A DNA stretch of 64,000 nt, taken from Branchiostoma floridae (Eukaryota; Chordata; Leptocardii; Amphioxiformes; Branchiostomatidae). The stretch is taken from the NCBI RefSeq assembly GCF_000003815.2, contig NC_049996.1, positions 3,519,144 to 3,583,143 on the forward strand. Reading direction: 5' to 3'. Positions 25,351-55,147 of the stretch are shown in pieces (positions within the stretch are counted from its first letter, which is position 1; every line of letters starts with the position of its first letter). A model generated the notes under the pieces. It had not been told where the DNA came from, did no database searches, and saw only the letters and a program-made list of their open reading frames with translations. The translations under genes and the position numbers were made by a program.

Positions 25351-26229
25351 AGTCAAGACTTTACTTCCGGGTTAGGTCGTTGACCTCATTTGAGTCAAGG
25401 ACAAGAAAATCGCCTATGGGGATTTTTCATGGTTAAGGATTCCAACGTCAAATTGAGAAGCTTTGACGCTCAAAAATTTATAGAAATGTGTACGAGAAGG
25501 TTGCACAAATAGATTATGATTTATTTCGTGATACAATGAACATAATATGTAAAGATGGACTTGAAAAAGTACCGGGTCTTTCCTTTTCGTCGCCCTCTTT
25601 TATGGGACGCTCAGCGGAGATCATGTGAACTGCAGCCGGCGCATGGTCGTTGATGGTATAAAGTTGGTATCTCACTGCACTTGGGGCACAGGTACGGCAC
25701 TGCGGGGTTCGAAAGATGACTCAGCGAATTTTAGACATAAAGAACGAATTTTCTTACGTTTGTGTATTTTTTTTGTCTTTTAAGTCATACCTCTATGTAC
25801 TAAATGTCTACTTTAATTAACGTTATGTGTGTTATGTTTGAGATTCCTATCATTGAATGCTACGAAATGTTCACATTAAATTGTGCAAATAGCTTCTGAT
25901 TTGCCTAATTAGCATCTGATTACTTGCACTACTCGCAGTGCTCGAAAAATACGGACCTAGATAATTGGAAATCGCAAGAAAAACTGACGACTGAAGGACA
26001 AATATGATATCAATGAATGACTGGTTTATTTCAATAGGATCATATTCAATACCATAACAGTTATAATGAAGCTGAATTGAGGTATGACTCACAGTTCAGT
26101 TCACAACATTAAGAATATTAAAAATTTACAATTTTGCAGCCAAAGAAAAGCTCGGTATGAATACAAGTTAGTCAAGCAGCAGCAAGAGTGCAGTGAAGCA
26201 TAGGTCATCAGTAGCTTGTGAGGATATTC

Positions 26230-26895
26230 TTGTGTATATTTCGCAATTCATGTTACATTTTGTTATATATGTTATAACATAACAATACAATTTACAGGCA
26301 CAGCAATACTGTTTTTTTACATCTTTTCATACTTGTTTACGACAGTTATACATTGTACAGTTATTTTTTCAGGCCGAGAAGCCACTTTTAAGTAAAGAAA
26401 GAAAAGCGGCTTGGTTAATTGAAAAAAAAAGATTATCCAGGTCTAGATCTTTGCCAAAGCACAATTAAAATTTTCGTTAGATGGCGACATTACAGGTAAC
26501 GTAATTTCTATTGTCTATTTTAAACTTCTTGGCATTTCACCTTCTTGTTATAGCAAATACAAATGTGAAACCAAAACCTACAAAATGTTTTTTTTTCAGT
26601 TTATCTGTACTATGTACAAACCTTAGCGAAATAGACAAAATGATTGCCAAGCTTCATACTAAAAGACTCTGACATGTATCCACGAACAGTAAAATTAAAA
26701 ATTGAAAACATATCATTCAAAGTTACAACAAATACAGAGCAACTGTACAGCAATAGCATTTAAACAAATGCTATCATCAACTGCAGCGAACAACTAAGAT
26801 ATATAAAACAGTACACAGTTCATCATTGGAAATTGTTTCCTCAAAACCGTCTATTGAGAAGAATATGAATAGGTATGTAGTTTTGTAATTTAAAT
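26230..26895. other. no gene seen, downstream part of left duplication arm
   Basis: AT-rich sequence that pairs with about 55600-56560 of the right arm. Around 26290-26400 it gives the uninterrupted version of the site occupied by a retrotransposon fragment at about 56155-56545. Confidence 0.5.
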
Positions 26896-27166
26896 AAAAA
26901 CTAAAAAAGATAAGCAAATTGAACCAGTTTACATCTCCGAAAAACTTAGTAACACTATGTACAGTATGTACAGGTTCATTGCACGGGGGAAGTTCCCCTA
27001 GCTCTTTTCCACAAGCACAACAGACAGTTGACCACAGGTTAACGTCCTGTCCAAAGAACTGCAACCTTTTCCGGTAGTGTGCATGTCGGGTGAGCGACGA
27101 ATTCGGTGTTCCACCTTTTGGTTCAAATGCTGGATCACTAGCCACTGGACTACGTCCGCTACGCTA
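26880..27166 (-). mobile_element. tRNA-derived SINE, family 2 (intact head)
   Basis: Minus strand: TAGCGTAGCGGACGTAGTCC and AGTGGCTAGTGATCCAGC resemble an A-box region, and TTTGAACCAAAAGGTGG a decayed B-box. The body CTCACCCGACATGCACACTA..GCAGTTCTTTGGACAGGACG..AACTGGTTCAATTTGC follows. The same element lies on the plus strand at 54922-55610 in the matching place of the right arm, so it predates the duplication. Confidence 0.7.
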
Positions 27167-27400
27167 AAGCTAAGGGTACAAACGGCGCCGTACGTGCAAA
27201 TACGTGCTGTCTACGTGCCAAAACGTGGGCAATCTTTTGGGATCCGTAAGTGGTAAGTGCCGCCTGCTTACGAACTCGTAGGGAATCCGACGGATTTGGG
27301 AGCACGCAGACACGCCGTAGAACTTTACGTGCACCGGGCAAAACTTTGTGTGCCGTCGGGCTGCGGATTCGCCCCCCGGGTTAATTGTGCCCTTAGCCTT
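27167..27400. mobile_element. MITE with TA target duplication (TIR AAGSCTAAGGG..)
   Basis: Ends AAGCTAAGGGTACAA and TTGTGCCCTTAGCCTT are inverted repeats of about 15 bases, flanked by TA (27165-27166, 27401-27402). The paralogous right arm reads straight through (GCCTTAGCGTAGCG at 54921), giving the empty site with a single TA. A TA duplication suggests a Tc1/mariner-type transposase. The interior is GC-rich and non-coding. Confidence 0.8.
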
Positions 27401-27807
27401 TAAGACAATGTCAAGATGTCGCCACAAAGTGATTCTGATATAAGGTATCATAGACATCTGTTAGAGCTTATAGTAGCACACTGTTCAACGTAGTGTTGTA
27501 CCTTTGCCAGTCAAACTGTTACGTCGCACAAATCGGCTGCACCCAAACAAACTGAAATAATGTATACTATTTCATTTTACAACAAATATATGAATCTCAT
27601 ATAAAATATGTTGACATTTAATTCCTAAAATGAACATAAAAACTTGGTATATATTCTTTCTGTGAAACTTAGATAAGCAAATACTTAAAGACAAATATGA
27701 CAATTTACCACTCAATGAAATTAATGGCCACTGGTCAATTTGCAAACTATGTTATTCCTTTTCCAGTCAAATTGTTACGTTGCGCCTGAACAAACTGAAA
27801 AAGTAAA

Positions 27808-27811
<4 letters not shown>

Positions 27812-27880
<69 letters not shown>
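27812..27880. repeat. (TA)n microsatellite
   Basis: About 68 bases of uninterrupted TA, downstream of the left LRR gene. Confidence 0.95.
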
Positions 27881-27883
<3 letters not shown>

Positions 27884-27969
27884 GTAAATATAACAAATAG
27901 ATGAATATAATCCAAAAGATGATAATATGTAGTACTTAGAAATTGAAATAAAAACTTGTAAATATTCTG

Positions 27970-28445
27970 AAAGACTGATATTGACTGGCAATTACAGAAG
28001 CTGTATGTGTAGTGTTTGTGTTGGATTGAGTGAGGGCCTAAGACTACCTCTAGGTATACCCTGTATGATCATGACCGCTGGTCACTACAGCAACTGTTGT
28101 GTTTGTGCCATTGGATTAAGTGATGGTATGAGACTGTCTCATGGTTTTGTACAGAGAACTTTGCCTTGAGACAGTCTGCCCTGTGCCTTAAAATAGATTT
28201 CCAGCTTCAACCATAACGTGAGACTGACCATTTCCGGACTGATCATGGCCACTGGTCACTACAGCTGCTGCAACTATGGTGTTTGTGTTAGATTCAGTGA
28301 TGGCTTGAGACTGGCCCTGCCCTGACTGACTTTGACCACTGGTCACTAGAGCAGCTGTGGTGTTTGTGTTGGATTCAGTAATGGTCTGAGACTGCCCCAT
28401 TGCTTTGTACAGAGAACTTTGCATTGAGAAAGTCGGTCCTGAGCC
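27970..28445 (-). pseudogene. decayed 3' extension of the left LRR receptor tail
   Basis: Directly after the stop of the left LRR gene and in the same frame, the tail repeats go on (GSGPTFSMQSSLYKAMGQSQ.., then QAITESNTNTIVAAAVVTSG..). The next interruption is TAA at about 28188, at the same repeat position as the functional stop, where other units have the Tyr of SYGTGQT. Further units toward 27970 contain more stops. This is coding repeat sequence that has become untranslated. Confidence 0.75.
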
Positions 28446-31151
28446 TTAAGATAGATTTCCAGCTTCAATGATAGCTTGAGACTGACCATGTCCTGTCTGA
28501 TCATGATCGCTGGTCACTACAGCAGCTGTGGTGGAGGATTCAGTAATGGTCTGAGACTGCCCCATTGCTTTGTACAGAGAATTTTGCATTGAGCTAGTCT
28601 GCCCTGAGCCATAAGATGGATTTTCAGCTTCAATGATAGCCTGACACTGGCCCTGCCCTGTCTGATCATGAATACTGGTCACTGCAGCAGCTTCGGTGTT
28701 TGTGCTTAACTGGCTTTGAGGCAGTCCGTCCTGTGCTATAAGTGGGACTTCTAGCATCAATGATAGCTTAAGACTGGCCCTTCTCTGATCATGACCACTG
28801 GCGGTGTTTGTGTTGGATTCAGTGATGGTCTGAGACTGACCCTGCCCTGTCTGATCATGACCACTGGTCACCACAGCAGCTGTGGTGTTTAAGCTGGATT
28901 CAGTGATAGCCTGAGACTGACCCTGCCCTGTCTGATCATGACCACTGGTCACTACAGCAGCTGTGGTGTTTAAGCTGGATTCAGTGATAGCCTGACACTG
29001 GCTTTGCTCTGTCTGATCATGACCACTGGTCACTACAGCAGCTGTGGTGTTTAAGCTGGATTCAGTGATAGCCTGAGACTGACCCTGCCCTGTCTGACCC
29101 TGACCACTGGTCACTACAGCAGCTGTGGTGTTTAAGCTGGATTCAGTGATAGCCTGAGACTGACCCTGCCCTGTCTGATCATGACCACTGGTCACTACAG
29201 CAAATGTGATGTTAGTGTTGGAGCCAGTGATAGCCTGAGATTGGCTCTGTCCTGTCTGATTATGTTGGCTCATGTTTTCATACTGGTGATCTTGACCACT
29301 AGTTACTACAGTAGCCGTGGTCTTTGGATTGGACTCAGTGGTGGTCTGAGACTGACCCTTCCCTGTCTGATCATGACCACTGGTCAAAATAGTAACTGGG
29401 GGTTGGTAAAAGGCGTTCGACACAAATTTAGAACGTTTGATCGAAGGAGGATTTCTGCCTTTCTTCTTGCACCAAATCACGAGAAAGATGACAACAATGA
29501 GAGTTACCATGATTGAACCAATTACAGATGAAATGATAACAGCTAAGTTCAGACTAGTACCGGATCCATCTGAAGTACCTTTGGTAGTAATTACATCTGA
29601 ATTTGGTGCCATAACTGTTAGATTTGTCATCACATCATCTGACAGTCCGGCAAATATCGAGTCAACATTGCGTTTGAAGTACCAATGATAGCGAGGAGTG
29701 ACAGTGCCATTGTTACAGTTGACTGGTAGTGTGGTAAGGGTCAAAGAAGTACCTGGGTGATTTGCTGTTGGACTAGAATTGCTTTCAGTATTGCCAAATG
29801 AATATGTTGACACTACAGATGAGCTGACTGGGAGTATGACAAAGGCCATAGTTGAGCCCGGAACATTGGGTGTTGGGCTAGTACTACTTTCTGTAGTACC
29901 GAGTGAAGATTTTGTAGATGAGCTGATTGGGGCTTTGATAAAATCATCAGCTGCAGGCGTTGATTTGGTCCGGTATTTACAGATCAGATCTTTGGGATCA
30001 ACATCTTTGAGTTTTTGCCCTAAGAGTTTGGTAGGTTCAGCACATGTTATCCGTGTCATAAATGAGTCGATCTGTTTTTGCATAATTTGCAGCATTCTAC
30101 AGTCACATCGCCAGGGGTTGTCGGCAATATGCAAATCAGGAACGGATCCCAAAATTTCATAATGTAACTCAGGAAGGGAAGATATCTGGTTGGAGGACAA
30201 CTCTAAATATGCGAGCTTGGGTAGATTTGAGAGTGCATCGGCCGTGATGCTGGTTATATTGTTGGAATGCAGGAACAACCGTTGGAGCTGCGGTAGATTT
30301 GAGAATTCACCCGTCTGAATTCTTGTAACCCTGTTAAAGGAAAGATTTATAAAATCAAGCCGGGATTGATTTGAGAATGTACCTGACTGGATGTGAGTTA
30401 ACTGGTTGCGCGCCAGTTGCAAACAGTAGAGGCCGGGTAGCTTTGAGAATGTACCAGCATAAATACTGGTTATCTTGTTGGAGCTCATGTGCAACTCTTG
30501 GAGGTTGGGTAGATTCGAAAACGTCCCAGACTGGATATTAGGTATCTGGTTATTGCTCAGATGCAAAATTTGCAGCTGAGGTAAATTTGAGAATACACCA
30601 GCCTGAATTACAACTAACTTGTTGGATCTCACATCCAAAATGCTGAGATTGGGTAGATATAGATGGGAGAACGTATCGGCCTGAATATTACGTATGCTGT
30701 TGGAGTTTAGCTGCAACTGTTTGAGCCCAGGCAGATGTCCGAATGTACTCGATTGGATGTGAGTTAATTGGTTGTTGGATAGATGGAGGGATTCGAGAGC
30801 GGGCAGAGCTAAGAATGCATCGGCTTGAATACTGGTTATCTTGTTATAGTTCAGGTACAACCGTTGTAGCTCGGGTAGATTTGAGAATGTACCAGCTTGA
30901 ATACTGGCTATCTTGTTAATGTTCAGATACAATTTTTCGAGCTTGGGTAGATTTGAGAATGTATTGGACGGAATGCCCGTTATCTGATTACTGCTCAAAA
31001 ATATCTGATTGGTAGATGTTGGGATCTGTGGAATACTGGTGAGCCCCTTGCGGGAACATCTGCAGCATGTACAGCTAGCTTCTGGCGTGTTGTGCTCCTT
31101 CATGATGATGGTGATGAGGAAAATTAGTATGTGTTGTAGCTTTCGTCCCAT
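28446..31151 (-). CDS. LRR transmembrane receptor (left paralogue), 901 aa
   Basis: Signal peptide (MGRKLQHILIFLITIIM), Cys-rich LRR N-cap (CTCCRCSRKGLTSIP), twelve typical 24-residue LRRs (about 45-335) and an LRR C-cap (NPWRCDCRMLQIM..CAEP..DLIC). Then come a Ser/Thr/Pro stalk with two SPTPN-type repeats, a membrane segment (about 534-560, AVIISSVIGSIMVTLIVVIF) and a 340-residue cytoplasmic tail of 27-residue repeats (VVTSGHDQTGQGQSQAITES, then SLNTTAA). Five units at 28850-29200 are nearly identical. The tail has a YENM motif and SLYKAMG/SYGSGQT segments. The start is the ATG matching the paralogue. The acceptor TGGTGGTAG at 31162 places all coding sequence in one exon. Likely a cell-surface recognition receptor; ligand unknown. 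Differs from VLRs in having a membrane segment and long tail. Confidence 0.9.
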   Translation of the reverse strand: MGRKLQHILIFLITIIMKEHNTPEASCTCCRCSRKGLTSIPQIPTSTNQIFLSSNQITGIPSNTFSNLPKLEKLYLNINKIASIQAGTFSNLPELQRLYLNYNKITSIQADAFLALPALESLHLSNNQLTHIQSSTFGHLPGLKQLQLNSNSIRNIQADTFSHLYLPNLSILDVRSNKLVVIQAGVFSNLPQLQILHLSNNQIPNIQSGTFSNLPNLQELHMSSNKITSIYAGTFSKLPGLYCLQLARNQLTHIQSGTFSNQSRLDFINLSFNRVTRIQTGEFSNLPQLQRLFLHSNNITSITADALSNLPKLAYLELSSNQISSLPELHYEILGSVPDLHIADNPWRCDCRMLQIMQKQIDSFMTRITCAEPTKLLGQKLKDVDPKDLICKYRTKSTPAADDFIKAPISSSTKSSLGTTESSTSPTPNVPGSTMAFVILPVSSSVVSTYSFGNTESNSSPTANHPGTSLTLTTLPVNCNNGTVTPRYHWYFKRNVDSIFAGLSDDVMTNLTVMAPNSDVITTKGTSDGSGTSLNLAVIISSVIGSIMVTLIVVIFLVIWCKKKGRNPPSIKRSKFVSNAFYQPPVTILTSGHDQTGKGQSQTTTESNPKTTATVVTSGQDHQYENMSQHNQTGQSQSQAITGSNTNITFAVVTSGHDQTGQGQSQAITESSLNTTAAVVTSGQGQTGQGQSQAITESSLNTTAAVVTSGHDQTEQSQCQAITESSLNTTAAVVTSGHDQTGQGQSQAITESSLNTTAAVVTSGHDQTGQGQSQTITESNTNTASGHDQRRASLKLSLMLEVPLIAQDGLPQSQLSTNTEAAAVTSIHDQTGQGQCQAIIEAENPSYGSGQTSSMQNSLYKAMGQSQTITESSTTAAVVTSDHDQTGHGQSQAIIEAGNLS

Positions 31152-31199
31152 ATTGCCAACCCTACCACCAGAATGGAACAAGTATTAACAGGACTGAAA

Positions 31200-32834
31200 C
31201 TAGGCAATTTTTAAAAACCTTTTTTTTGCATATTTTACATGAGGTATTGTAATTCATGTGAACAAATAATGTTTGATCTCAAGAAACTGATCTATAGAAT
31301 TGAAAATAGCACCCCCACCCCTAAGTTTGACCGCATCTAATCACAACAGGAATTTCTTAATTTATTGTGAAAGGAAAAAAAAACGATACTGACATACCTC
31401 ATACCAAACCATCATGGCAAAATAGCAATTTGTCATGGAATTAAAATGGAAACAAAAAATGCCAGAGGAAGATACACTTTCTCCCCATTTTGTTTTATAC
31501 CTTGCTACAATTGATATTTTTAAAGGAAAAAAATCTTTGCACAAATCCTATTGCTTGCCATGATATGAGACACAGGGCAATATGAGTGCACCCGAAATTA
31601 AATGATACGAAATGGAACTAAATGAAATTAAATGAGCCAAAATGGAATTAAACGGAAATAAATGGAATTTACAGAAGATGCGAAATGGAACGAAATGTAC
31701 ATTCCATGTCGTTCATTTTCACACTTCAGCTTTCTGTACACCCCTTGAATGTATGTGTGTGTGTTTTGTAATGGCATAGAATTTTCTAATGACATAAGGC
31801 CACTATTACTATAGCAGTGATTTATTTGCCCCTGCATTACCCATAGAACCCCGCGTCTCCCAGCATGCGATAGGATCCGTCAAATGTCTATGATGACCAT
31901 TCCATAAATGTATGATAAGGCTGTACAAGCTCTGATCAGTTCTACCTTAAAATGTTTTCATACACTGCGTGACAAACAGTTCTAAATTAGTCTGAGTTTG
32001 GCCTATTTGCATATCAATATTGATCAATATGTATTTTTCACTCACTAGGCTCTGCGTTGCTTTTACATCAACAACACTAACCTCTAAACATCTTATCTAT
32101 TTATTCAGATATGTATTCACCCATAAACAAACTATGGGAAAGACAAAACAGGTGAAACTTCACCCGTTCAAGTTGTCTCCTACAAAATGATGGAAAAAAA
32201 TTGATGACAATACTGAAAACAATTCTAAACAAGAACAATAACTACTGATAATAGTGGTAAAGAATGATAATAATAATCATGATATCAACAACAACAGTTT
32301 ATTGGTTTTGCGCGATATACCGGTAATACCCAACTTCCGGTGACATGCCAAAAAAAACAAACAACCGAGCGTAATATGTAGAACCTTTCGGTTTTTACAG
32401 AAAAAATATTAGACTATGTGTTATCTGCTTCCATTCAGACAACCTCCAATGTTGGTGATACAATATAATTTTGAACCTGAATCGCTGATTTGAGCGCAAC
32501 ACAAGCTATATAGAAGGACACAAAATATTGCACGACAATTGTACATGGTACAATGTATGACAACAGCTAAACCAACGTGCAGCGTACATATTACTGTAAA
32601 TCATAGAATTTTCACACTGTTTTCAAATCCACCACGAACTTCTCACAACAGTGAACATGCGTTCTGTCTTGCAATGTGTTACTACATTATATAACTGTTT
32701 TACCTTCGAAGTCAAAGATACTGCACACTCTTGATTATTGCCATGTAAAGCGCCGCAGATCTAAATGAACTTTCAGTAATTTACAAGATATGCGATCTAG
32801 AAAATGAAGCATTGTTGAACAAAACGATACTTAC
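31200..32834 (-). other. intron 1 of left LRR gene
   Basis: Matches the right-arm intron in many places. Features are an (AAATGGAAT)-like simple repeat at 31600-31700, a GT-rich stretch near 31750 and, at about 32620-32650, the uninterrupted version of the site where a CR1-like element inserted in the right arm. Confidence 0.6.
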
Positions 32835-32855
32835 CTTGAGGTTATCTAAACTTAC

Positions 32856-32960
32856 CCATCAACCTAGTCGCTGTATCTTCAGTTCGTTCTTTCTTTACTA
32901 GCGAGTCAGAAAGGAGTTTCGTCGACGCGTCGGTCTTCTAGTGGCACTTGAGTCTGTAAA
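32856..32960 (-). other. non-coding first exon of left LRR gene
   Basis: Conserved with 45000-45120 of the right arm, including AAGTGCCACTAGAAGACC and the donor region. Two donors are possible in both copies: GATGG|GTAAGT at 32856/32855 and CTCAAG|GTAAGT at 32835/32834. The transcription start is not determined. Confidence 0.55.
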
Positions 32961-33100
32961 CTGCGAACTCTGGGTAGCATTTCCGTGAAAATGTGATAAA
33001 CAAGATTGCATTAGTCGTATACGAATAGGGTGGCCTTGATTGTCTGAACATACCTTCATGATTATTGAATTTATTACCTTAGCCAAGAAGGTTATGATTT

Positions 33101-33914
33101 CAGGTACGTGTATCTGTTGACATGGACATCATAACTTGAAAAGTCGCGAATGAAACTACATGATATTTGCTATGTTGTAATGTGACATAAGTTTAGGCCC
33201 TCTGGTAGATTTTTCTAGGAACTGCAGGTGCCTTTTAGTTGCAAACTTGCAAACCTTTTAGTTGCAAACCTTTTAGTTGATAAGCCAAGAAGGGAAAAAT
33301 GAGCGTTGATGATCTCTGACCTGTAGTTAATGTTGATGAAGACTTACGTAAATGTGTGTCGATTATGCAAATAAGGGCCTCAATTGCATAAAATGTGTAT
33401 GTCGATTGTGGTAAATGACAGCAACTTCATATTCACTACATGGTATGTAACGTTATGATTGTGATAATGTAAGTTTTACTTGTATCTCATGTTCTTTCTT
33501 TCTTTTCTTTCTTTATTGACAATGAAACAACTCATAACACGGGTCTGCCTAGGCAGCTTTGGGCTGGTAGCAGCAGACCCATACATATGCAGACGAACAT
33601 ACACAGAATTCATAACAATAAACATTATAGTATGATACAATATAAAATAATCAACAACTATGAAATGTGCCATGCATCGTAGATATCTATCTATCTATCT
33701 ATCGGTCGGCCGCGAGGCGGGCGACTGCAAGTCTCCACTGTTTCTTGTCGGCAGCCAGGGTTTTGATCTGCCCCGGTATCAGGGAAGATATCAGGTAGAT
33801 ATCAGGTAGATATCAGGGAAGTTGATCTATTTGTTTACCACCAACATGTAGTGCAGAAATTGAACAGCATGTACCTGAAAATTATCTTGTGCATTAATTA
33901 AAAAATGCAAGTAA
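33101..33914. other. no gene seen; simple repeats and a possible LINE 3' end
   Basis: TTTC microsatellite at 33487-33515 followed by TTTATTGACAATGAAACAAC. On the minus strand this reads like a 3' end with polyadenylation-type signal and A-rich tail. (CTAT)n lies at about 33683-33705. No coding frame. Confidence 0.4.
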
Positions 33915-43879: not shown

Positions 43880-44880
43880 TGAAAATAAACAATTGTTTTG
43901 GGAGGTACAATAGTAATAAATACGGACGTGGCTTACAAAAAGCGTACGGAAAAAAGTGGTTGTCGCAGAGGAACAATTGAAGCAAATACACAACTTTGGA
44001 GAAATTTGCTCGTTCATCTTGGACGGTGCTCGATGCTGCAAATATTGTCTGATTCCTAAAGTTGCATAGTGATTGAGGGTAAAACGGCCATGTTGTTGCC
44101 AAAAATGCAATCTCAGAACTGTTTCCTTATTCATTGTCAATGACATTTAGGCAGAACTGATTAAGCTCTACAAATTCGGTGTGTCTATCAACCTATTTCT
44201 TGGTGTCCAGAGGTGACAATAAAAGCAAATGCACAAATTCAGGACCAAGGATGCTATGAACACGCGAGTTCAGAAGACAACATGGAGTAAACAACCTGGA
44301 AAATGTAAATATTCAAATAGGCAAATTCAAACAAGAAAACCTTCTCTCATAAAGTAAGACACAATCAACGTATTTATTAATATTGTACCTAACAAAACAC
44401 TTGGTTGATCACAGTTTGAGATTAGAATTTCCATGCATAGATTTTAGGCTCATACTGTTTAGGGTCTAAACCCCATACATGTTGTCGCAGAGCAATTCAG
44501 AGCCTAACATTTTGAAAAACAAGTCGTATTAACATTATCACAATTATACCAAAGTACATAAGTAGCGAGTATAAAGTGTCTGTCATTTAGAAAACCGTGA
44601 TATTCTCTTAATCAACTATGCAGATGAAGTCCTTATTTGCTAGTCAACAAAAGATTACGTTGGTCTTCAACAACGTTACGTACAGAAATCATCAACGTTC
44701 GTTACTGCCTTCTTGAATTATCCTGTGTCAAAGTTTGCAACTAAAAGGCCCCTGCAGTTCCAACAGAAAGCTGCTAGAGGGCCCAAGCGTATGTCACTTC
44801 ACAGCATATCAAATATCAATAGCATATCAAATATCCACGACTTTTTACCTATGATGCCCATGGTTACAGATACACGTACC
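43880..44880. other. no gene seen between NXPE and the right duplication arm
   Basis: AT-rich; only short, overlapping open frames on either strand without family resemblance or splice context. Confidence 0.5.
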
Positions 44881-44999
44881 CGAAACCATAACCTTTTTGT
44901 AGAAGGTAATAAATTTCCATAATCATGAAGCTTTGCTCAGACAATTAACCCCACCCTATACGTATATGACTAATCCAATCTTGTTTGTCACATTTTGAC

Positions 45000-45120
45000 G
45001 GAAAATCTACCCAACGTTCGCAGCTGACAGACACAAGTGCCACTAGAAGACCAAAACCTTCTTTCTGACTTGCCAGCCCGGAAAGGACGAACTGAAGCTA
45101 TTAAGACTAGCTTAAAAGGT
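45000..45120 (+). other. non-coding first exon of right LRR gene
   Basis: Homologous to 32856-32960. Donor CTTAAAAG|GTAAGT at 45120/45121, with an alternative AAAG|GTGAGT twelve bases later, the same twin-donor arrangement as in the left copy. The 5' end is estimated. Confidence 0.55.
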
Positions 45121-45316
45121 AAGTTTAAAGGTGAGTATAGTTTTGTTCAGCCATACTTCATTTTCTAAATTGCGTATCTTGTAACTTACTGTAAGTCAAT
45201 GTAGGTCTGTGGCGCTTGACATGGCAAAAATCAGGAGTGTGCAGTATATTTGAGTTTGAAGCTGAAAACAATCATATAATCTAGTAACACATTGGAAGAC
45301 AGAACGCATGTTCATT

Positions 45317-46627
45317 TTTATTTATTTATTTATTTATTCACATATATTTTGCGAGTATGAGGCGGAAAGCACAAATTGCTTATATTAAGCCTTCTACTCA
45401 AGAAACATACGCATAAAACAAGAATAGTAAACGACATTACATACATAAGTACAAAATGGATAACAGAAAAATAAATTTAAACAAGACAAGTTGGTGCTGA
45501 ATCAATTAGGAGAACCTGCCTGTACAATGGATATAGGTAATGACAAGATCAAAAATGTTACAGTTCTGTTGATGTGAGAGAGATGTTGATCCTGATAACA
45601 GTAAAGTACATAAAGTAGTGTCGTTGAGGTGCTTTAGGTCTACTATAATATTTGAGACAGCCGATAACAAAGAACTTCTTTGGCTAGTATAGAGTGTGCA
45701 GTGTAGTAGATAATGTTCGGTTGTTTCACAATGATAGCCGCATTTACATGTAGGATAATCAATACAATGGTGTTGAAATAGATGGTAGTTTAACTGACTG
45801 AAGTTTAGACGGAGCCTTGTAAGATGAACTGCGGAACGACCTTGGCCATGAGAGAAATGGGAGTATTTTGTCGACTTGTTGAATAGTGAGTCCAGCTCTT
45901 TTTTGAAAGTGTTGATCGAAAGGACGGCTTTAGCATTCGTAGGCAGTTCATTCCACAAGTGAACAGTTGAAGGTAGGAAGGATCTTTTATACTTTTCAGT
46001 TTTACAGGCAATGGAAGTAAGGTTTTGGTTTGCGCGAAGGTTGTAAGGGACCGTATCACAGATACGTGGAGGGATAATATTATGTAAGTACAGTGGTGCG
46101 AGACCATTCATAATTTTCCAAAACTGAATCAACTGATGCTTTTTCCTTCTGTCCGCTAGTGTGTCCCATGCAACCTCGGCTAACAAGCTCTCATGTTTAG
46201 TGCCTCTCATGGCTCCGGTACAAACTCGTGCCGCGGCCATCTGGACAGACTCAAGAAGATCACAATCTTTGCCGAGAAGGCCACACCAAACAATGTCAGC
46301 ATATTCAAGTAATGGACGAATCATAGTGACATACAGAGTTTCTAATGTTCCCCGAGGAACAAAATATGATATCCTCTTCAGAAGATTGATTCGCTTCATT
46401 GCCTTGGTAATCAATGTAGACACGTGATATGACCAGGACAAGTCACGTTTCAAGTTTAAGCCCAAATGCTTGTGAGAGTCAACTTCCTTAAGCACAACTC
46501 CTTTAAACACTAATGGTGGGTGATAGACTTTGACCCTTTTCATGGAGAATGTCATCAGTTCAGTTTTAAGGGGATTAAAAGTTACCAGCCACTGGTCCGA
46601 CCATTCACCCACCATTCTAAGATCATG
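45317..46627 (-). mobile_element. 5'-truncated non-LTR retrotransposon (CR1/L2-like), 11-bp target duplication
   Basis: The minus-strand frame 46615-45506 (369 codons) is the C-terminal part of a non-LTR reverse transcriptase: TFNPLKTELMTFS, HKHLGLNL..DLSWSYHV, RPLLEYADIVW. A thumb-like helical region and a terminal zinc-type motif (CKCGYHCETTEHYLLHC) follow. The 3' end has an A-rich (AAATAAAT)n tail at 45317-45340. GCATGTTCATT flanks it at 45306-45316 and 46628-46638. The left arm has the empty site at about 32630-32650. It lies antisense in intron 1 of the right LRR gene. The endonuclease and the front of the RT are missing, so it is dead. Confidence 0.9.
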
Positions 46628-46638
46628 GCATGTTCATT

Positions 46639-48639
46639 ATTGGGAGTAGTTCGTGGTGAATTTGAAATTCTACAATTTACAGTATTACATGTGCCCCACA
46701 AGTTGGATAAGGTAAAGATACATAGCTACAGTTCTATAAAGCTGATCTACTGAATACAAGGGCGCATAGTATGGGATGAAAATAAATTGCTTTGTGCTCA
46801 AATTGTCGATTCAGGTTCAAAATTAAGTTGGAACACCGGCATTGTTATTTGACTTAATCGAATTAGATAACACATAGTCTTGGTTGTTTGTTTTTTAAAT
46901 CGAAAGCTTCTACATATTGCACTCGGAAGGTTTTTGTATGCAAACGCAAGTTTGGTATTTTGCGAAAATCTGAACTAGATAAAGTTCCAGATACCTAAGT
47001 TCTGATGATAATTTGTTTTCACTCAAACTTTAGATGTACTGAAAATATCGATTTCATTATCCCAATGCTATAGAATTTGTTTTCAGTTTCATTCAAGATT
47101 GATGTCCACATTATCAAAAATGTGAAAGAACCCAAAAGTGCGTCAAAAAGCAATGCCAAATCTTTTTCTTTCGGTTTATGTCAGCAAATCGTAAGATTCT
47201 AAAAAAAAAGAAACACGTTACATGCAAAAGTATAATCTATCAGGGAGAAAAAGAATAACTTAAGATTGATATTCAAAAATTTCGAATCAGACAATTAGCC
47301 AGCCATCGTTTTTATCATCATCATTACTTATTGTTAATTATTACTATTATTTGGTAGGTAAGACTACTAGGAGAGGTGTTTTTTCACCAGTTTTGTCTTT
47401 CACACCATTTGATGTTGTTTGTTTATGGTTGAATACATAAATAAATAAATAAGTAGATAAAATGTTTACATGTTAGTGTTGTTGATGTAATAGCGAAGTA
47501 CGTGACAGCATCTACTGAGTGTGAAATACATATTGATCAATATTGGTATGCAAATAGGCCAAGCTCAGACTAATTTAGAACTGTTTGTCACGCAGTGTAT
47601 GAATAAATTTTAAGGTGTAAATGATCAGGGCTTGTACAGCCTTACCATACATTTATTGAATGGTCATCATAGACATTTGACGGACCCCATTGCATGCTGG
47701 GAGACGCTGTGTTCTATGGGTAATGCAGAGGGCAAATATATCATTACCATAATGTTCTTATATAATTACAAAACACACACACATATTACGTACATTCAAG
47801 GGGTGTACAGAAAGTGTGAAATGGAGCGAAGTGGAATGTAATTTTTTATTCCATTTCGAATCTTCTGTACATTCCATTTCGTTTCGTTTCATTCCATTTT
47901 GTGGGATTTTACGCCGAAGATGGCGTGTTACGTCGAAGGGTGGTTATAGGAGCTATATAGGTACAGATACAGATTCGATTTCAGTTCGTTCCATTTCGTC
48001 CCATTTCGTTCCCGTTCGTCCAATTTCTTAATTTCGGTCTACCAATCTCGGGTGCGCCCATATTTTCCTGTGTCTCCTAGCATGGCATGTAGTAGGATTG
48101 GTGAAAAGCTCTTTTTTCCCTTTAAAAGCATCAATTGTAACATGGTATAAAGCAAAATGGGGAGAGTTTGTCTTCCTCTGCCATTTTTTGTTTCCATTTC
48201 AATTCCATGACAAATTGCTTTTAAAAATTTGTGATAAGCTGATAAATATACCTTCATGCTATTTAGCCATGATGGCTCGGTATGAGATATGTCAGTATAA
48301 TTTATTTCCTTTTACAATAGATCAAGAAATTCTTGTTGTGATCAGATGCGGTCAAACTTTGAGGTTTCTATTTCCATATTTATATATCAGTTCCTTTTGA
48401 ATTCAAAGATATTTGTTTACATGAACTACAATTTGAAAGAACTCAGTGTAAAATATTCACACATTATATGTCTGTAGCCACGATACCAGCCATGCTACCT
48501 AGTGCTCATAGTGTATTGTCTTGTTACAACCTGAATAAAGTAAAGTAAAGTGTAAAATATGACCCCCCCCCACCCCCCAAAAAAGAGTACAAAATGCGTC
48601 CTTTCAGTACTGTTAATTCTTCTTCCATTTTGGTGGTAG
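46639..48639 (+). other. rest of intron 1 of right LRR gene
   Basis: Homologous to the left intron, including an ATTCCATTTCGTTTCGTTTC-type simple repeat near 47865-48030 and CA-rich sequence near 47770. No other gene. Confidence 0.55.
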
Positions 48640-48649
48640 GGTTGGCAAC

Positions 48650-51600
48650 ATGGGAAGAAGGCTACGACACAAGCTGATTTTCCTCCTCCTCATCGCCAGC
48701 ATGAAGCCCAACACGCCAGAAGCTAGCTGTGCATGTCGTACTTCATGTTGCAAATGTCCCCACAGAGGCCTTACCAGCATTCCACAGATCCCAACATCTA
48801 CCTATAAGATAGATTTGAGCAATAATCAGATAGCTGGCATTCCGTCCAATACATTCTCAAATCTACCCAAGCTCCAACAGTTGTGCCTGAACTATAACAA
48901 GATAACCAGTATTCAAGCTGGTACATTCTCAAATCTACCCGAGCTACAACGGTTGTACCTGAGCCTTAACAATATAACCGGTATTCAAGCCGGTGCATTC
49001 GTAGCTCTACCCACTCTCGAATTACTTCAGCTGTCCTATAACCAATTAACTCACATCCAATCGGGTACATTCGGATATCTGCCTGGGCTTGAACAGTTGC
49101 AGCTAAACTTTAACAACATAAGTAATATTCAGGTTGATACGTTCTCCAAACTACCCCATCTCCGCATTTTGGATTTGAGTTTAAACAAGCTGATTGTAAT
49201 TCAGGCTGGTGTATTCTCAAATTTACCAAAGCTGCAAACTTTGAAACTTAATATCAACCAGATAATTAACATCAAGCCTGGTACGTTTTCGAATCTACCC
49301 AACCTCGAACGCTTGTTCTTGAGCTCCAACAAGATACCCAGTATTTATGCTGGTACATTCTCAAACCTACCCAAGCTTAAAAATTTGCAACTACATTTAA
49401 CTCACATCCACTCTGGTATATTCTCAAATCAACCCCGACTTGAGATTATAAATCTTTCCTTTAACAATCTGACTAGAATTCAGACGGGAGAATTCTCAAA
49501 TCTACCCCAGCTAAAACGGTTGTTCCTGAATTCTAACAAGATAACCAGCATCCAAGCCGATGCATTATCAAATCTACCCAAGCTCGCATATTTAAAGCTG
49601 TCCTCCAACCAGATATCTGCCCTTCCCGAGCCATATTATGAAATATTGGGATCCATTTCTAGATTATATATCAACGAAAACCCCTGGCAATGTGATTGTA
49701 GAATGGTGGCCATTATGAAAAAACAGATCCACTCATTAATGACACAGATAACATGTGCCCAACCTGCTAGACTCTTGGGGAAAAAACTCCAAAATGTCGA
49801 TCCCAAGGATCTGATCTGCAATGACCGAACCAAATCAACTCCTACACCTATCCAAGCCCCAATCAGTACATCTACATTGTCAACATCTTCACTTGGTACT
49901 ACAGAAAGGAGAACTAGCCCAACACCTAATGTTCCGGGCTCAACTGTAGCCTTTGTCACACTACCAGTTAATATGAAAACCCCAGCCAGCGCATCTGTAG
50001 TAACAGCATCTTTGTTTAGCATATCAAATCCTCCAGACTCCGCAGTGTCCTTTGCCACACTACCAGTTGATATGAAATCCCCAATGTCATCTGTAATGTC
50101 AACATCTTCTCTTGACAAAGCAGAAAGTAAGACTAGCCCAATACCTAATTCCCCAGGTTCTATCGAGGCCTTTTCCACACCATCTGTTGATAGAAAAGCC
50201 TCTTCAGTGTCAAAATCTTCATTTGGCAATTCAAGCCCAACGCCAAATCTTACAGGCCCTCCTTTTGCATTTGCCACACGACCAGTCAATTGTCACAATG
50301 GCACTGTCAAATCTCACTATCATTGGTATTTCAAACGCAAAGTTGACTCGACACTCTCTGAAGATGTGCAGACAAACCTAATAGTTACGGCACCAAATTC
50401 AGACGTAATTGCTACCAAGGGTACCTCAGATGGATCCGGCACTAGTCCCATCTTTGTTGTTATCATTTCATCTGTCGTTGGTTCAGTCATAGTAACTCTC
50501 GCTGTTGTCATCCTTCTCGTGGTTTGGTACAAGAAGACAGGCAGAAATCCTCTTTCGCGCAAACGATTTAAATTTGTCTCCAACAACTTTTACAAATCCG
50601 CAGATACTGCAGTGACCAGTGGTCAGAAAGAAAAGGGTCAGTCCCAAGCCATCACTGAATCCAACACAAACACCCCAGCTGGTGTAGTGACCAGTGGTCA
50701 TGATCACCAGTATGAAGACATAGACCGACATACCAACCTAAGGCAGGGTCAGTCGCAGACAATCACTGAATCCGACACAAACACCACAGTTTCTATAGTG
50801 ACCAGTGGTCGTCATCAGACGGGTCAGGGCCAGGCTCAGGTCATCACTGGCTCCAACACAAACACCACATCTGCTGTAGTGACCAGTGGTAATTATCAGA
50901 CAAAGATGAGCCAGTCTCGTGCCATTGTTGAAACTGGAAATCTATCTTATGGTACAGGGCAGACTGCCTCAATGCAAAGTTCTCTGTACAAAGCAATGGG
51001 GCAGTCTAAGACCATTACTAAATCCACCACCACCACAGCTGCTGTAGTGACCAGTGGTCATGAGCAGTCAGGACATGGTCAGTCTCAAGCTGTCATTGAA
51101 ACTGGAAATCCATCTTATGGCACAGGGCAGACTGCCTTAGTACAAAGTTCTCTGTACAAACCCAGTGGTCATGATCAGGCAGAGCAGGGTCAGTCTCAGG
51201 CCATCACTGAATCCAACACAAACACCACAGCTACTGTAGTGACCAGTGTTCATGATCAGACGGGGCAGGGTCAGTCTCAGGCCCTCACTGAACCCAAGAC
51301 AAACACCACAGCTGCTGTAGTGACCAGTGGTCAGGGTCAGACAGAGCAGGGTCAGTCTCAGGCCATCACTGAATCCAACACAAACACCACAGCTACTGTA
51401 GTGACCAGTGTTCATGATCAGACGGGGCAGGGTCAGTCTCAGGCCATCACTGAACCCAAGACAAACACCACAGCTGCTGTAGTGACCAGTGGTCAGGGTC
51501 AGACAGAGCAGGGTCAGTCTCAGGCCATCACTGAATCCAACGCAAACACCACAGCTACAGCAATGACCATCACTAAATCTAACACAAACGCCACGGCGGC

Positions 51601-52012
51601 TCTAGTTACCAGTGGCCATAATCAGATAGTGCAGGGTCAGTCTCAGACCATCACTGAATCCAACACAAACACCGCCAGTGGTCATGATCAGAGAAGGGCC
51701 AGTCTTAAGCTATCATTGATGCTAGAAATCCCACTTATAACACAGGACGGACTGCCTCAAAGCCAGTTGAACACAAACACTGAAGCTGCCGTAGTGAATA
51801 GTAGTGGTCATGATGATCAGACAGGGCAGGGTCAGTCTCAGTCCATCACTGAATCTAACACAAACACCATAGTTGCAGCAGCTGTAGTGACCAGTGGTCA
51901 CGATCAGTCAGGACATGGTCAGTCTCACGCTATTGTTGAAGCTGAAAATGTATCTTATGGCACAGGGCAGACTGCCTCAAAGCAAAGTTCTCTGTACAAG
52001 CCAATGGGATAG
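48650..52012 (+). CDS. LRR transmembrane receptor (right paralogue), 1120 aa
   Basis: The exon begins at 48640 after TGGTGGTAG. Signal peptide (HKLIFLLLIASM), LRR N-cap, twelve LRRs, LRR C-cap (NPWQCDCRMVAIM) and an extended Ser/Thr/Pro stalk with four repeats of the SPTPNVPGSTVAFVTLPV type (two in the left paralogue). Then a conserved membrane-proximal NCHNGTV..YHWYFKR, a membrane segment (about 601-625) and a tail of about 490 residues with some 13 imperfect 27-residue repeats, a YEDI motif and SYGTGQTASMQSSLYK segments. LRR 9 is 3 residues short (LQLHLTHIHSGIF) and has lost its consensus Asn. The stop is TAG where sibling units have CAG (MGQS), so the tail was shortened by a nonsense change. 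Likely a surface recognition receptor; ligand unknown. Confidence 0.9.
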   Translation: MGRRLRHKLIFLLLIASMKPNTPEASCACRTSCCKCPHRGLTSIPQIPTSTYKIDLSNNQIAGIPSNTFSNLPKLQQLCLNYNKITSIQAGTFSNLPELQRLYLSLNNITGIQAGAFVALPTLELLQLSYNQLTHIQSGTFGYLPGLEQLQLNFNNISNIQVDTFSKLPHLRILDLSLNKLIVIQAGVFSNLPKLQTLKLNINQIINIKPGTFSNLPNLERLFLSSNKIPSIYAGTFSNLPKLKNLQLHLTHIHSGIFSNQPRLEIINLSFNNLTRIQTGEFSNLPQLKRLFLNSNKITSIQADALSNLPKLAYLKLSSNQISALPEPYYEILGSISRLYINENPWQCDCRMVAIMKKQIHSLMTQITCAQPARLLGKKLQNVDPKDLICNDRTKSTPTPIQAPISTSTLSTSSLGTTERRTSPTPNVPGSTVAFVTLPVNMKTPASASVVTASLFSISNPPDSAVSFATLPVDMKSPMSSVMSTSSLDKAESKTSPIPNSPGSIEAFSTPSVDRKASSVSKSSFGNSSPTPNLTGPPFAFATRPVNCHNGTVKSHYHWYFKRKVDSTLSEDVQTNLIVTAPNSDVIATKGTSDGSGTSPIFVVIISSVVGSVIVTLAVVILLVVWYKKTGRNPLSRKRFKFVSNNFYKSADTAVTSGQKEKGQSQAITESNTNTPAGVVTSGHDHQYEDIDRHTNLRQGQSQTITESDTNTTVSIVTSGRHQTGQGQAQVITGSNTNTTSAVVTSGNYQTKMSQSRAIVETGNLSYGTGQTASMQSSLYKAMGQSKTITKSTTTTAAVVTSGHEQSGHGQSQAVIETGNPSYGTGQTALVQSSLYKPSGHDQAEQGQSQAITESNTNTTATVVTSVHDQTGQGQSQALTEPKTNTTAAVVTSGQGQTEQGQSQAITESNTNTTATVVTSVHDQTGQGQSQAITEPKTNTTAAVVTSGQGQTEQGQSQAITESNANTTATAMTITKSNTNATAALVTSGHNQIVQGQSQTITESNTNTASGHDQRRASLKLSLMLEIPLITQDGLPQSQLNTNTEAAVVNSSGHDDQTGQGQSQSITESNTNTIVAAAVVTSGHDQSGHGQSHAIVEAENVSYGTGQTASKQSSLYKPMG
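51218..51545 (+). repeat. 162-bp higher-order repeat in the receptor tail
   Basis: Two 81-base units (..TSVHDQTGQGQSQ.. and ..TSGQGQTEQGQSQ..) form a dimer that is itself repeated almost exactly, so the coding array grew recently by dimers. Confidence 0.8.
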
Positions 52013-52330
52013 TCTCAGGCCATCACTGAATCCACTGATCAGACAGGGCTGGCCTCCGTTGCTCCGTTCCAGTCTTCGAACGGGGCTGTTTTTTCATTGG
52101 GGGGGGGGGGCAGGTTCTCTTGTGCCGAGAAAGTTTTCCAAGTTTACCGAGGAAGAGATTTTGCCAAGGAAGCGAGTTTACTGTGGAAGGGAGTTTGCAG
52201 TGGAAGGGAGTTTCACCACGAACACAAACACAATAAAAACCAGCCACGCTCTGGACTGCAAAAGAGGCTAAGACGGGGCTGGGTCAGGGTCAGACCATCA
52301 CTGAATCCAATAAAATATGTACCTCTTCTG
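52013..52330 (+). pseudogene. decayed 3' extension of the right LRR tail
   Basis: Past the TAG the same frame reads SQAITESTDQTG before drifting into a G run (52098-52110) and unrelated sequence. Later fragments (GGTCAGACCATCACTGAATC at about 52285, AGTCATGGTCAGGGC at about 52344) are out of frame. An AATAAA at 52309 arises inside such a fragment and may serve as the poly(A) signal. Confidence 0.65.
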
Positions 52331-52484
52331 TAATTGTCAGTAGTCATGGTCAGGGCAAGTATGAGATAAATTTGTCTCAACTTGAAAGTTCAACTGTGTT
52401 GGAAAAAATCAGTATGAATAGGGTTAAACTGTAATTTTCAACACAGCAATATTGGACTTTTCCAAATTTTTGACTGATCGACTC

Positions 52485-52735
52485 CAGCCTTTTTTAAGGA
52501 AAGGACAATCCACTGCTTCAGTGACGTCACGTTATGAAGGTAGCACACGTGACTCCTTGAGCAGTGGATCAAACAAGCCATCTACATTGGATATTTATAA
52601 CCATCAGAAAGTGGAGACGGAGGGCGCCATAGGCTTCTGCAACTTATGACCCACTACTCGGGGAGTCCCGTGTGCTATCTACATAATGTGACGTCATTGA
52701 AGAAGTTAATTGTCCATTCTTTGACAAAGTCCATC
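52485..52735. mobile_element. fold-back MITE with about 55-bp inverted repeats
   Basis: 52503-52556 and 52664-52718 are reverse complements, each holding a TGACGTCA (52522, 52689) and GTAGCACACGTGACTCC / GGGAGTCCCGTGTGCTATC. About 105 bases lie between. The left duplication arm has no counterpart. Confidence 0.75.
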
Positions 52736-52772
52736 AGTCCAATATCTTGTGTTTGAAATTGCGGTTTAACTC

Positions 52773-52978
52773 TACAGTCAAACGTGTCTATAGCGACCAC
52801 TCAAGGGACTGGTCAAAATTGGCCACTATAGAGAGATGGTCACTATAGAGAAAATGCTGATTAATTGGCCGCTAAGCCTATTTCTTAATCATTAAGAATC
52901 CAAGGGACGGACAAAAAATGGCCACTATGGCCAGGTGGCCGGTATGCAAAGGTGGCCGCTAATACAGGTTTGACTGTA
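52773..52978. mobile_element. MITE with TACAGTCAAAC ends
   Basis: TIR TACAGTCAAACGTGT / ACAGGTTTGACTGTA, interior with GGCCACTATAGAGAGATGGT and related units. A similar interior stretch (CACTATAGAGAAAATGCTGA) occurs inside Helentron-like copies A-C near 7890, 13880 and 17095, suggesting capture of part of such a MITE. Confidence 0.75.
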
Positions 52979-53598
52979 TTCAGAACAAATTTAACTCTGA
53001 ACAAGCTCCTCCAGCAAAACATCTGTGTAACAGCTGTGTCTATAGATATGATGGCTGTTTCTTGGTGTCCGAAGATCAATGGGAGGCAGACAAGTTTGAT
53101 TAGACGACCAGTCTACCTGGCCTGCACGTGACTTTTTAAGGTGAAGGAGGGGTGTGCACTCCCTTCTCCACCCTCTCGTCTACTGGCGCACTAAGTCCTA
53201 CAGGGACAGAACTGTTTGCCACATAAGACGGCCCCAGCAGATGCAGGTTTATTATTTGGAGTTTCCGTCTCCTAGGAGGACTTCCGACCAAGGATGCAAG
53301 GGATTCCTCCTACCCCTGACTCGTGTGTCATGGCGGGTGCGTCATGCCCGAACATGCCCCTAAGGCCTACCACTGCCACAAAGGCATGTCACTGCCACTA
53401 CTACAAGAGTTACAACAACCAGTAACGCCTGTCAAAATGAAGGCCCTAAAGTATATGTTACTTATAAGCCTCTTCTATTTCTCACTTTTCGTAAAAGTCA
53501 GACAAACATTGCTGCTTAGTTGAAAAACAAGCACATGGCCACCAGAACAAACACATACGTTTATGTACTGTATAGGTATGGACTTGAGCCTGAACATA

Positions 53599-53966
53599 CA
53601 GGGTTCTCCCCAGAATTTTTTAGTATAGTGGAAAAAACCCCGAACTAACGCACTGCGCTTTCGTGAAAACGGGTTCATTTTGCAATGATAGAGGGCGTCA
53701 AATACTACAAGTATAATATATTATAGTGATTCCTTTGTTGTTAAGTGGCAAAACGACTATTGTTTTGATTAATGCCCATTCACAAGTTTTTGCAGACAAT
53801 GCCGACTGGAAAAGTGATGCTACTTGGCATAAAAATCTGTGAATTTTCATGAATTTTAGTAAAACTAACCAAGAAAATAGGGAATATTTTCTAAAGTAGT
53901 ATAGTGGAGCTGGGCCAGGAGTATAGTGGAGGGCCTCTGTTATTCCGTCCTCTGGGGAGGACGCTG
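53599..53966. mobile_element. hAT-like MITE, CAGGGTTCTCCCCAGA ends
   Basis: Left end CAGGGTTCTCCCCAGA, right end TCTGGGGAGGACGCTG, with AGTATAGTGGA motifs in both subterminal regions. Flanks are similar but not an exact 8-bp duplication. Confidence 0.6.
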
Positions 53967-54473
53967 ACATACATATTGTCAAAAAGTTTAGCCAATTATT
54001 TGAAAGTTGTTAACACTTACTAAAGCCAACTGTATGTCTTATTAAGTGGCTGATACTCATGTTGTTTTACGTATCTTAGTCTCGAAAAAAGAACATCTAC
54101 AAGTTTTTATGTTACTTTCTAAGTACTGAATATGATTATCTTTGAGATTGTACTCACCTAATTGTTGTATTATGGTATACATAGCATTCATTATTTCAGT
54201 TTGCTGAGGTGCATGCTACTGCTGCAACATAACAATCTCACGGGCAAAGGAACAACAACGTTTTCAAGTTGTACATATTTACTAAAAATAACTGTATGCC
54301 TTATTTTAAAGGTGGTAAATTGTCATTTTTGTTTACATATTTTATAAGTATTTACATACCTAAGTTTTGAAGCAAGAATATATATAAAGTTTTTAAAGTC
54401 ATTTTCAAGAACTAAATGTCAGCATCTTCTAGATGATTAGCATGAAAGTTCATCTGTACCGGTAAATGACATT

Positions 54474-54752: not shown

Positions 54753-54934
54753 AGATGAGACTTATCTATTTGTTGTAAAAGAAAAGGGTATACACAATTC
54801 ATTTTTTTACAGTTACAGCCCTAAACTCTGCAGTGTGTGTTCCATCAAAGATAAATCAGAGAACAGTTGATGTTCATGATACCTTACATTAAAATCACTT
54901 TGTGGTCACATCTTGAGATTGCCTTAGCGTAGCG

Positions 54935-55122: not shown

Positions 55123-55147
55123 TACGTAGTACAGTGGTCAGTAATTC

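Follow-up and report, generated by a model that had tools for sequence, protein, structure and literature searches.

Tyrosine cassettes and a blank 27-residue unit in the tails of a large lancelet family of leucine-rich repeat receptors: candidate docking arrays that appear to change by whole in-frame units

What is a cytoplasmic tail made of coding repeats for, and what changes in a receptor when such repeats expand? The question is raised by a stretch of 64,000 nucleotides from the lancelet Branchiostoma floridae (GCF_000003815.2, contig NC_049996.1; C18:3519144-3583143, read on the forward strand), here called the window and numbered from its first letter, which holds two continuous open reading frames (ORFs) of 901 (left) and 1120 residues (right) in inverted orientation, each encoding a leucine-rich repeat (LRR) receptor with a repetitive tail. 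An initial annotation of the window had noticed an 81-base coding unit in both tails and had supposed that variation in tail length would vary signalling output. Followed through the genome, this 81-bp observation leads to a receptor family with modular tyrosine tails, and we consider it probable that these are multivalent docking tails for phosphotyrosine- and PTB (phosphotyrosine-binding domain)-dependent signalling, which evolve like in-frame minisatellites within a large LRR family of a single genome. What carries this reading is the family: between its loci, as far as sequence comparison can tell, the tyrosine-bearing cassettes are under purifying selection, with ratios of nonsynonymous to synonymous change (dN/dS) of 0.28-0.39.

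The two receptor genes and the duplication in which they lie are made up as follows.

28446..31151, minus strand: left receptor coding sequence (P0001), a continuous ORF of 901 residues plus TAA stop
30108..31007, minus strand: left LRR region (approximate), Pfam LRR_8 E 6.4e-67, 11 LxxLxLxxN repeats
29472..29561, minus strand: left transmembrane helix, hydropathy windows from residue 531, helix 535-563 in the structure model
28449..29471, minus strand: left cytoplasmic tail, 341 residues, by in-frame parsing
48650..52012, plus strand: right receptor coding sequence (P0002), a continuous ORF of 1120 residues plus TAG stop
48791..49690, plus strand: right LRR region (approximate), Pfam LRR_8 E 3.8e-81
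50435..50527, plus strand: right transmembrane helix, hydropathy windows from residue 596
50528..52009, plus strand: right cytoplasmic tail, 494 residues, by in-frame parsing
52309..52314, plus strand: candidate AATAAA polyadenylation signal of the right gene, by motif, with a further AATAAA at 52232
25825..33489, no strand given: left arm of an inverted segmental duplication (discontinuous), by self-blastn
44513..57004, no strand given: right arm of the same duplication (discontinuous), by self-blastn

In both proteins an LRR ectodomain is followed by a stalk, one transmembrane helix and the tail, and hydropathy gives each a single above-threshold hydrophobic run with the tail thereafter. Both genes are predicted to encode extracellular, type I single-pass LRR receptors; the annotation had read them as LRR receptors whose tail repeat expands in frame, and LRR_8 in both proteins, the single membrane pass and repeat units 98-100% alike bear this out. 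An LRRCT cap is weakly matched by Pfam in the left protein (E 0.075, below the cut-off) and unlisted in the right, while the cap-type cysteines C349, C351, C370 and C391 are common to both. Up to E 1, all Pfam matches sit in the ectodomain, the tails are matchless, and neither protein has a match to the TIR domain that defines a Toll-like receptor. Both complete ORFs are encoded as they stand in one assembly, which may be compared with the somatic assembly of LRR cassettes in variable lymphocyte receptors (VLRs).

That these are genes and not frames left open as noise is indicated by two comparisons between the paralogues. Each of the eight gaps found as far as the juxtamembrane region has a length divisible by three, whereas only 9 of 46 gaps do in five blocks of non-coding sequence from this duplication, and over 513 ectodomain codons dN/dS is 0.61 (dS 0.255), a ratio below 1 by Fisher's test on rounded counts (p 7e-4). 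Were the pair pseudogenes, or a non-coding minisatellite open by chance, one could point to the left stop standing in place of a Tyr codon, to the right array broken past its stop, and to the separation of LRR part and tail into different ORFs at 7 of the 36 loci examined elsewhere in the genome; set against 901 and 1120 open codons, and an ectodomain whose gaps are all in frame and which is under purifying selection, this explanation is barely credible. Diversifying selection on the concave LRR face is not claimed: left and right differ there at 21/42 residues versus 52/253 elsewhere (p 1.5e-4), but synonymous change is also raised (0.49 versus 0.18) and dN/dS is alike (0.70 versus 0.66).

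Is the tail peculiar to this pair? The annotation had proposed searching lancelet proteomes for the unit in other receptors, and the search, run on the window's own genome (513,431,437 bases, 431 contigs), found many further LRR receptor loci. A 255-base piece of the left tail has at least 157 matches there, and the right-tail protein at least 305; among the matches listed, 214 (66 from the upper part of the left-tail DNA list and 148 from the right-tail protein list) merge into 81 clusters on 18 contigs, hence about 81 loci or more, the clusters being split at 4-kb gaps, so that a long gene may count twice, close neighbours may count once, and some clusters are perhaps remnants. Among the left-tail matches listed, none outside the window is a near-identical second copy of that query over its full length. 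Sequence was examined for 36 of the about 81 loci, a non-random sample of mostly best matches, and all 36 have an LRR ORF: at 29 a single ORF covers LRR part and tail, and at seven (L020, L026, L027, L031, L032, L036, L037) the LRR ORF lies upstream of the tail on the same strand. In this sample the tail, judged by its sequence, belongs to one large LRR receptor family; the idea that such tails occur on many unrelated ectodomains finds no support here, since all 36 loci carry LRR ORFs.

The annotation had also taken the repeat to be undescribed as a domain, and so it appears. We rejected its identity with a known domain, since the tails have no Pfam match up to E 1 and sequence searches of the Protein Data Bank (PDB) with the left and right tails returned only matches with E above 0.02; three tail strings occur in none of 5.39 million PubMed Central texts, and no description of the tail was met in a literature search that had most subscription journals outside its reach.

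Across the family, three cassette types bear tyrosine, with the cores QYED[IVM]D, LAALKPNPMYAGVG and N[PLV]SYGTG...SLYK/SPLYK. Four cassettes were defined in all: the first, called YE, of 37-38 residues, is GHDHQYED[IVM]DKQHNQTGQGQSQAITQSN.NTTAAVVTS; the second is a blank, that is Tyr-less, unit of 27 residues; the third is NPSYGTGQIDSMQSPLYKAVGQSQAITES and the fourth LKVENLSHDEVLAALKPNPMYAGVGAPPKDQTSTAMTSG. Between loci, with the window genes included, the YE core has a dN/dS of 0.34, with Tyr in 93 of its 105 copies from 27 loci. The ratio is 0.28 for the NPMY cassette (41 copies, 25 loci), whose tyrosine persists in 39 copies although synonymous changes are frequent (TAC in 23, TAT in 16), and 0.39 for the NPSY-SLYK cassette (52 copies, 28 loci), in which both tyrosines are present in every copy. 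Long arrays of the 111/114-bp period (up to 12.6 copies, at L041) and of the 81-bp period (up to 8.2, at L042) occur in different genes; the period is a multiple of three in 139/139 arrays of period 60 or more, a figure which arises largely by construction, only open frames having been scanned, and which we leave unused.

The motifs point the same way. YED[IVM] and YENM/YxxM are contexts suited to SH2 domains, and NPxY is one suited to PTB domains. The commonest tyrosine context is YE[DN][IVM], an acidic SH2-type context found 151 times in 43 of the 47 family tail ORFs, followed by NPxY (73 in 36 ORFs), while YxxPhi occurs in all 47. The immunoreceptor tyrosine-based inhibition motif (ITIM) pattern has 31 matches elsewhere in the family, spread over 24 of the 47 ORFs. 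On the domain and motif tests we rejected the TIR class, the immunoreceptor tyrosine-based activation motif (ITAM) class and, for the window pair, the ITIM class. As a separate observation, PPxLPP motifs are present in 3 of the 47 ORFs: the tails of L037, L040 and L043 end in proline-rich sequence of this type, which in L040 and L043 alternates with YEDVD, a variant in SH3-plus-SH2 style.

Several points weigh against reading the tails as docking arrays. The YE tyrosine is missing from 12 of 105 copies; cassettes were counted by regular expressions that take flanking residues as anchors, so that conserved copies are favoured; the N of the NPxY columns was obligatory in the search pattern; and cassettes within one array are not mutually independent. 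An estimate for the 'YE framework', from 14 copies only, gives dN/dS 1.11 (0.62-1.90), contrary to constraint there, and is not used as evidence. A strict ITAM (Yxx[IL] x6-12 Yxx[IL]) is found in 0 of the 47 tail ORFs, and the ITIM pattern ([SIVL]xYxx[IVL]) in neither window tail. In the window pair itself, dN/dS is 0.85, with a wide interval, for the four translated Tyr cassettes, and 0.96 (bootstrap 0.47-2.5) for the blank units. Taken alone, the pair has no detectable selection on blank unit or Tyr cassettes, and with ratios near 1 the evidence for function rests on the family and not on this pair.

The tyrosines might also serve constitutive sorting, NPxY through PTB adaptors and YxxPhi through AP2, and so endocytosis or phagocytosis in place of phosphotyrosine signalling. 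The spread of NPxY over 36 and of YxxPhi over all 47 ORFs would suit this, as would the NPxY of CED-1, which, according to the accessible part of one source, may bind its PTB adaptor unphosphorylated (PMC8092387). We nevertheless find the explanation doubtful, given that YE[DN][IVM] is the commonest context, even if YEDI and YEDM also fit YxxPhi.

How, then, is the tail of each window receptor put together? Its parts are these.

28809..29198, minus strand: five blank (Tyr-less) monomers, four full 27-mers and a last one cut to 22 residues (residues 652-781), by Tandem Repeats Finder (TRF) and in-frame parsing
51236..51559, plus strand: two blank 54-residue dimers of 162 bp each (residues 863-970), by TRF and in-frame parsing
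29199..29309, minus strand: YE cassette, QYENM, by in-frame parsing of the left tail
50684..50794, plus strand: YE cassette, QYEDI, by in-frame parsing of the right tail
28521..28685, minus strand: NPSY...SLYKAM Tyr cassette, left tail, by in-frame parsing
50876..51043, plus strand: NLSY...SLYKAM Tyr cassette, right tail, by in-frame parsing
51044..51166, plus strand: NPSY...SLYKPS Tyr cassette, right tail, by in-frame parsing
51884..52009, plus strand: C-terminal NVSY...SLYKPM Tyr cassette, right tail, by in-frame parsing
28686..28808, minus strand: frame-shifted Tyr cassette, left copy, read as ...RASLKLSLMLEVPLIAQDGLPQSQL..., by DNA alignment with the Tyr cassettes
51668..51790, plus strand: frame-shifted Tyr cassette, right copy, by DNA alignment, 6/123 bases differing from the left
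28446..28448, minus strand: left stop TAA, standing where the four translated Tyr cassettes have the Tyr codon TAT, by cassette alignment
28020..28445, minus strand: further left-array sequence beyond the stop, open for 85 codons (28191-28445) as far as a second TAA, which again falls on the Tyr codon, by ORF scan and alignment
52010..52012, plus strand: right stop TAG, at a position that is Gln CAG in the other aligned cassettes, by cassette alignment

The 81-base unit of about 27 residues noted in both tails is recovered by TRF and by in-frame parsing, as are the arrangements attributed to it, five monomers on the left, with the last cut short, and two 162-base dimers on the right. Two descriptions need narrowing: the span 28446-29210, from which the annotation started, lies within the left tail but covers its distal part only, the tail running from 29471 to 28449, and tails described as built of 81-base units contain that unit as one part besides YE, NPxY/SLYK and frame-shifted cassettes. 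NPxY/SLYK cassettes number one on the left, with a second copy cut by the stop, and three on the right, and there is one NPxY motif per window tail.

TRF places the period-81 array of the left gene at 28803-29264 (5.7 copies, 91% matches) and the period-81 and period-162 arrays of the right gene at 51162-51569 (5.0 and 2.5 copies). The unit has the consensus VVTSGHDQTGQGQSQAITESNTNTTAA and matches a YE cassette that lacks the middle portion, about 10 residues long, in which the tyrosine sits. Two left monomers are identical at 81/81 bases and the partners in the right dimers are 99% and 98% alike, whereas left-right pairs are 75-93% alike, these ranges excluding R654, a 75-base right unit that is out of register (39-55% versus other units). 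With units 98-100% alike against an ectodomain dS of 0.255, the expansions therefore appear younger than the gene duplication, unless gene conversion homogenised the units. Since the expanded unit lacks tyrosine, the recent expansions in the window would alter spacing and not the number of docking sites. A 154-codon antisense frame (51140-51601, minus strand) runs through the right array, since the 81-bp unit is free of stops in one antisense frame.

The proposal that tail length varies signalling output is possible but finds no support in that form: the expanded unit is Tyr-less, its dN/dS in the window pair is near 1, and its differences fall evenly over codon positions (26/24/25). The same evenness would be expected if minisatellite turnover were neutral and tolerated by a flexible tail in which only the Tyr cassettes matter, a proposition that we hold to be evenly balanced; decaying array sequence beyond both stops and the low confidence of the full-length structure model in the tail also agree with it. 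Across 27 loci, however, the blank unit is somewhat constrained, with dN/dS 0.56 (0.40-0.78), though on copies chosen for consensus likeness, and this interval overlaps that of the LRR 22-mers used as a yardstick (0.49; 0.29-0.78). Neutral turnover limits the docking explanation and does not contradict it. That tail length polymorphism is itself selected for its effect on signalling output draws on the same incomplete freedom of the unit across loci, on recent expansions whose positions differ between the two paralogues and on long 81-bp arrays elsewhere (7.7 copies at L037, 7.2 at L038, 5.7 at L039 and 8.2 at L042); with a window-pair unit that has no tyrosine and changes without codon-position bias, we think it unlikely.

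A structural role for the array was weighed as well: it would fold into a rod, either a beta-solenoid or amyloid-like, on which a signalling assembly nucleates, and the number of repeats would fix how long the rod is. AlphaFold2 gives a strand-rich model for the five monomers alone (mean pLDDT 83.8), whose best Foldseek match is the functional amyloid FapC (E 1.3e-4, TMq 0.16; the sole match with E <0.001), with CsgA at rank 3 (E 0.023). Against this, the five models span pLDDT 83.8 to 49.7, with low TM-scores; no amyloid chain is among the PDB matches listed for the tail sequences, and in the model of the whole protein the repeats reach only about 45-61; as AlphaFold2 is reported, in the accessible text of one study, to yield such folds wrongly for perfect repeats (PMC11795689), the model deserves little weight and the rod seems very improbable.

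Both arrays also seem to record losses. The left stop lies inside the array and repeat sequence continues beyond it, and repeat remnants likewise stand behind the right stop, where the array is broken, so that both tails look like shortened forms of a longer array ended by point-mutation stops. The two left stops, at 28446 and about 28190, are both TAT-to-TAA changes at the same Tyr codon of adjacent copies, by parallel mutation or local conversion. One NPSY-SLYK copy common to both genes has a gap of 4 bases close to its start and another further on that restores the usual frame, leaving about 26 residues out of frame. Its 6/123 differences between left and right are fewer than in every one of 509 overlapping 41-codon windows of ectodomain and transmembrane region (minimum 8, mean 19; binomial p 2e-4), and since the 22 adjoining codons are likewise similar (7/66 bases differ), gene conversion and constraint are both possible causes of the low divergence; a pattern search for this cassette matched 0 of the other 45 family ORFs. 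As a measure of the spacing that the blank units would set, 223 residues lie between the YENM and NPSY tyrosines of the left protein and 267 between the SLYKPS and NVSY tyrosines of the right.

Do docking sites themselves change in number? Among the examined loci, L014 (contig C154) and L020 (C7:17.84 Mb) are 97.5% and 98.4% identical over their main DNA pieces of 4452 and 1396 columns, and 439 of 452 aligned tail residues are identical; the tails are set apart by insertions of 68 and 76 residues, with 4 and 2 tyrosines, and hold 20 (L014) and 14 (L020) tyrosines. Lancelet heterozygosity is given as 3.2-4.2% in the accessible part of a recent source (PMC12862219), so the divergence fits the allelic range and the two may be alleles or recent duplicates; a B. 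floridae family with two parents and 104 offspring is also on record (PMC12862219). Two facts tell against so simple a comparison, namely that two further blast pieces, both from the repeat zone, reach no more than 91% and 95%, and that the ectodomain and tail of L020 are in different frames, the copy being perhaps broken or misassembled. The pair nonetheless indicates that copy number in the family changes by whole in-frame cassettes, and at that diversity we would expect units 0-2% apart to be polymorphic, provided that their apparent youth is not the product of gene conversion. A bolder extension, which we offer tentatively and as possible rather than probable, is that in a receptor family of about 81 or more loci the LRR sensing and the phosphotyrosine/PTB signalling arrays both turn over in frame, so that how many docking sites a receptor has, in what order and how far apart, would be a heritable, fast-changing copy-number trait, a germ-line tyrosine code differing between alleles, with the blank 27-residue unit as a near-neutral tuner of spacing.

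Under the docking explanation, ligand-driven receptor clustering would lead to phosphorylation of the tail by kinases of Src-family type; SH2 proteins would dock at YEDI, YENM and YxxM contexts and PTB proteins at NPxY, and the docked tail, as a multivalent platform, would feed phagocytic or immune signalling, with blank units as flexible spacers setting the distance between sites. Unequal exchange or slippage would gain or drop units, the frame surviving this turnover because units are multiples of three. In the window, recent expansions would have added spacer only, the left receptor would have lost distal Tyr cassettes to its stop, and one Tyr cassette common to both genes would have lost its tyrosines by frame shift.

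Known systems share parts of this design. The coding variable-number tandem repeat (VNTR) of DRD4 belongs to a single receptor gene and is not known to include phosphotyrosine cassettes. With its 48-bp unit it is likewise an in-frame minisatellite on the cytoplasmic side of a receptor, in the third intracellular loop (PMC3164202). A close comparison is BbLcLRR, the Lck-associated inhibitory LRR receptor of Branchiostoma belcheri, a single-pass receptor with several tail tyrosines that are Lck-dependent; its tail, as described in the available part of the source, is a docking platform after Lck phosphorylation and associates with SHIP1 in transfected cells (PMC8211107). It differs in its 699 residues, its WSC domain and its three tyrosines in ITIM or ITIM-like contexts, and that part of the source mentions no cassette array, the comparison being by description and not by sequence (PMC8211107). 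Amphioxus VLR-like proteins such as Bf66946 have an LRRNT-LRR-LRRCT ectodomain in the same style, but are short, with a hydrophobic end and no repeat tail mentioned in the accessible text, which cites 948 LRR-only gene models for B. floridae (PMC4731796). The engulfment receptors CED-1, Draper and Megf10 combine NPxY with a second tyrosine motif in one tail; they have EMI/EGF-type ectodomains and, in the sections available, NPxY plus one ITAM or YxxL without a cassette array, Draper and Megf10 using the ITAM that is absent from the lancelet tail ORFs (PMC8092387).

The rest of the window holds features of other kinds. Between the duplication arms, at 38860-43610, lie ORFs matching Neurexophilin (27.1 bits, cut-off 27) and the NXPE4 C-terminal domain, perhaps one multi-exon NXPE-type gene. 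At 7148-17878, next to an assembly gap at 9730-10304, there are three copies, of which one is inverted, of an element of about 2.6 kb that has 163-bp satellite arrays; they are 95-98% alike. A 615-bp inverted repeat with itself (22536-23150) is 87.8% self-complementary, and the ORF beside it (23247-23954) gives a borderline match to exo/endonuclease-phosphatase, at 24.4 bits against a cut-off of 24.5.

Lancelets are basal chordates and are used for tracing the origins of vertebrate immune receptors. If the tail is a phosphotyrosine platform, dozens of orphan receptors would be tied to one signalling route. The family would then offer a natural series of receptors differing by whole docking cassettes, in which the dose and spacing of sites could be compared directly, with L014 and L020 and the two window genes as ready-made test pairs.

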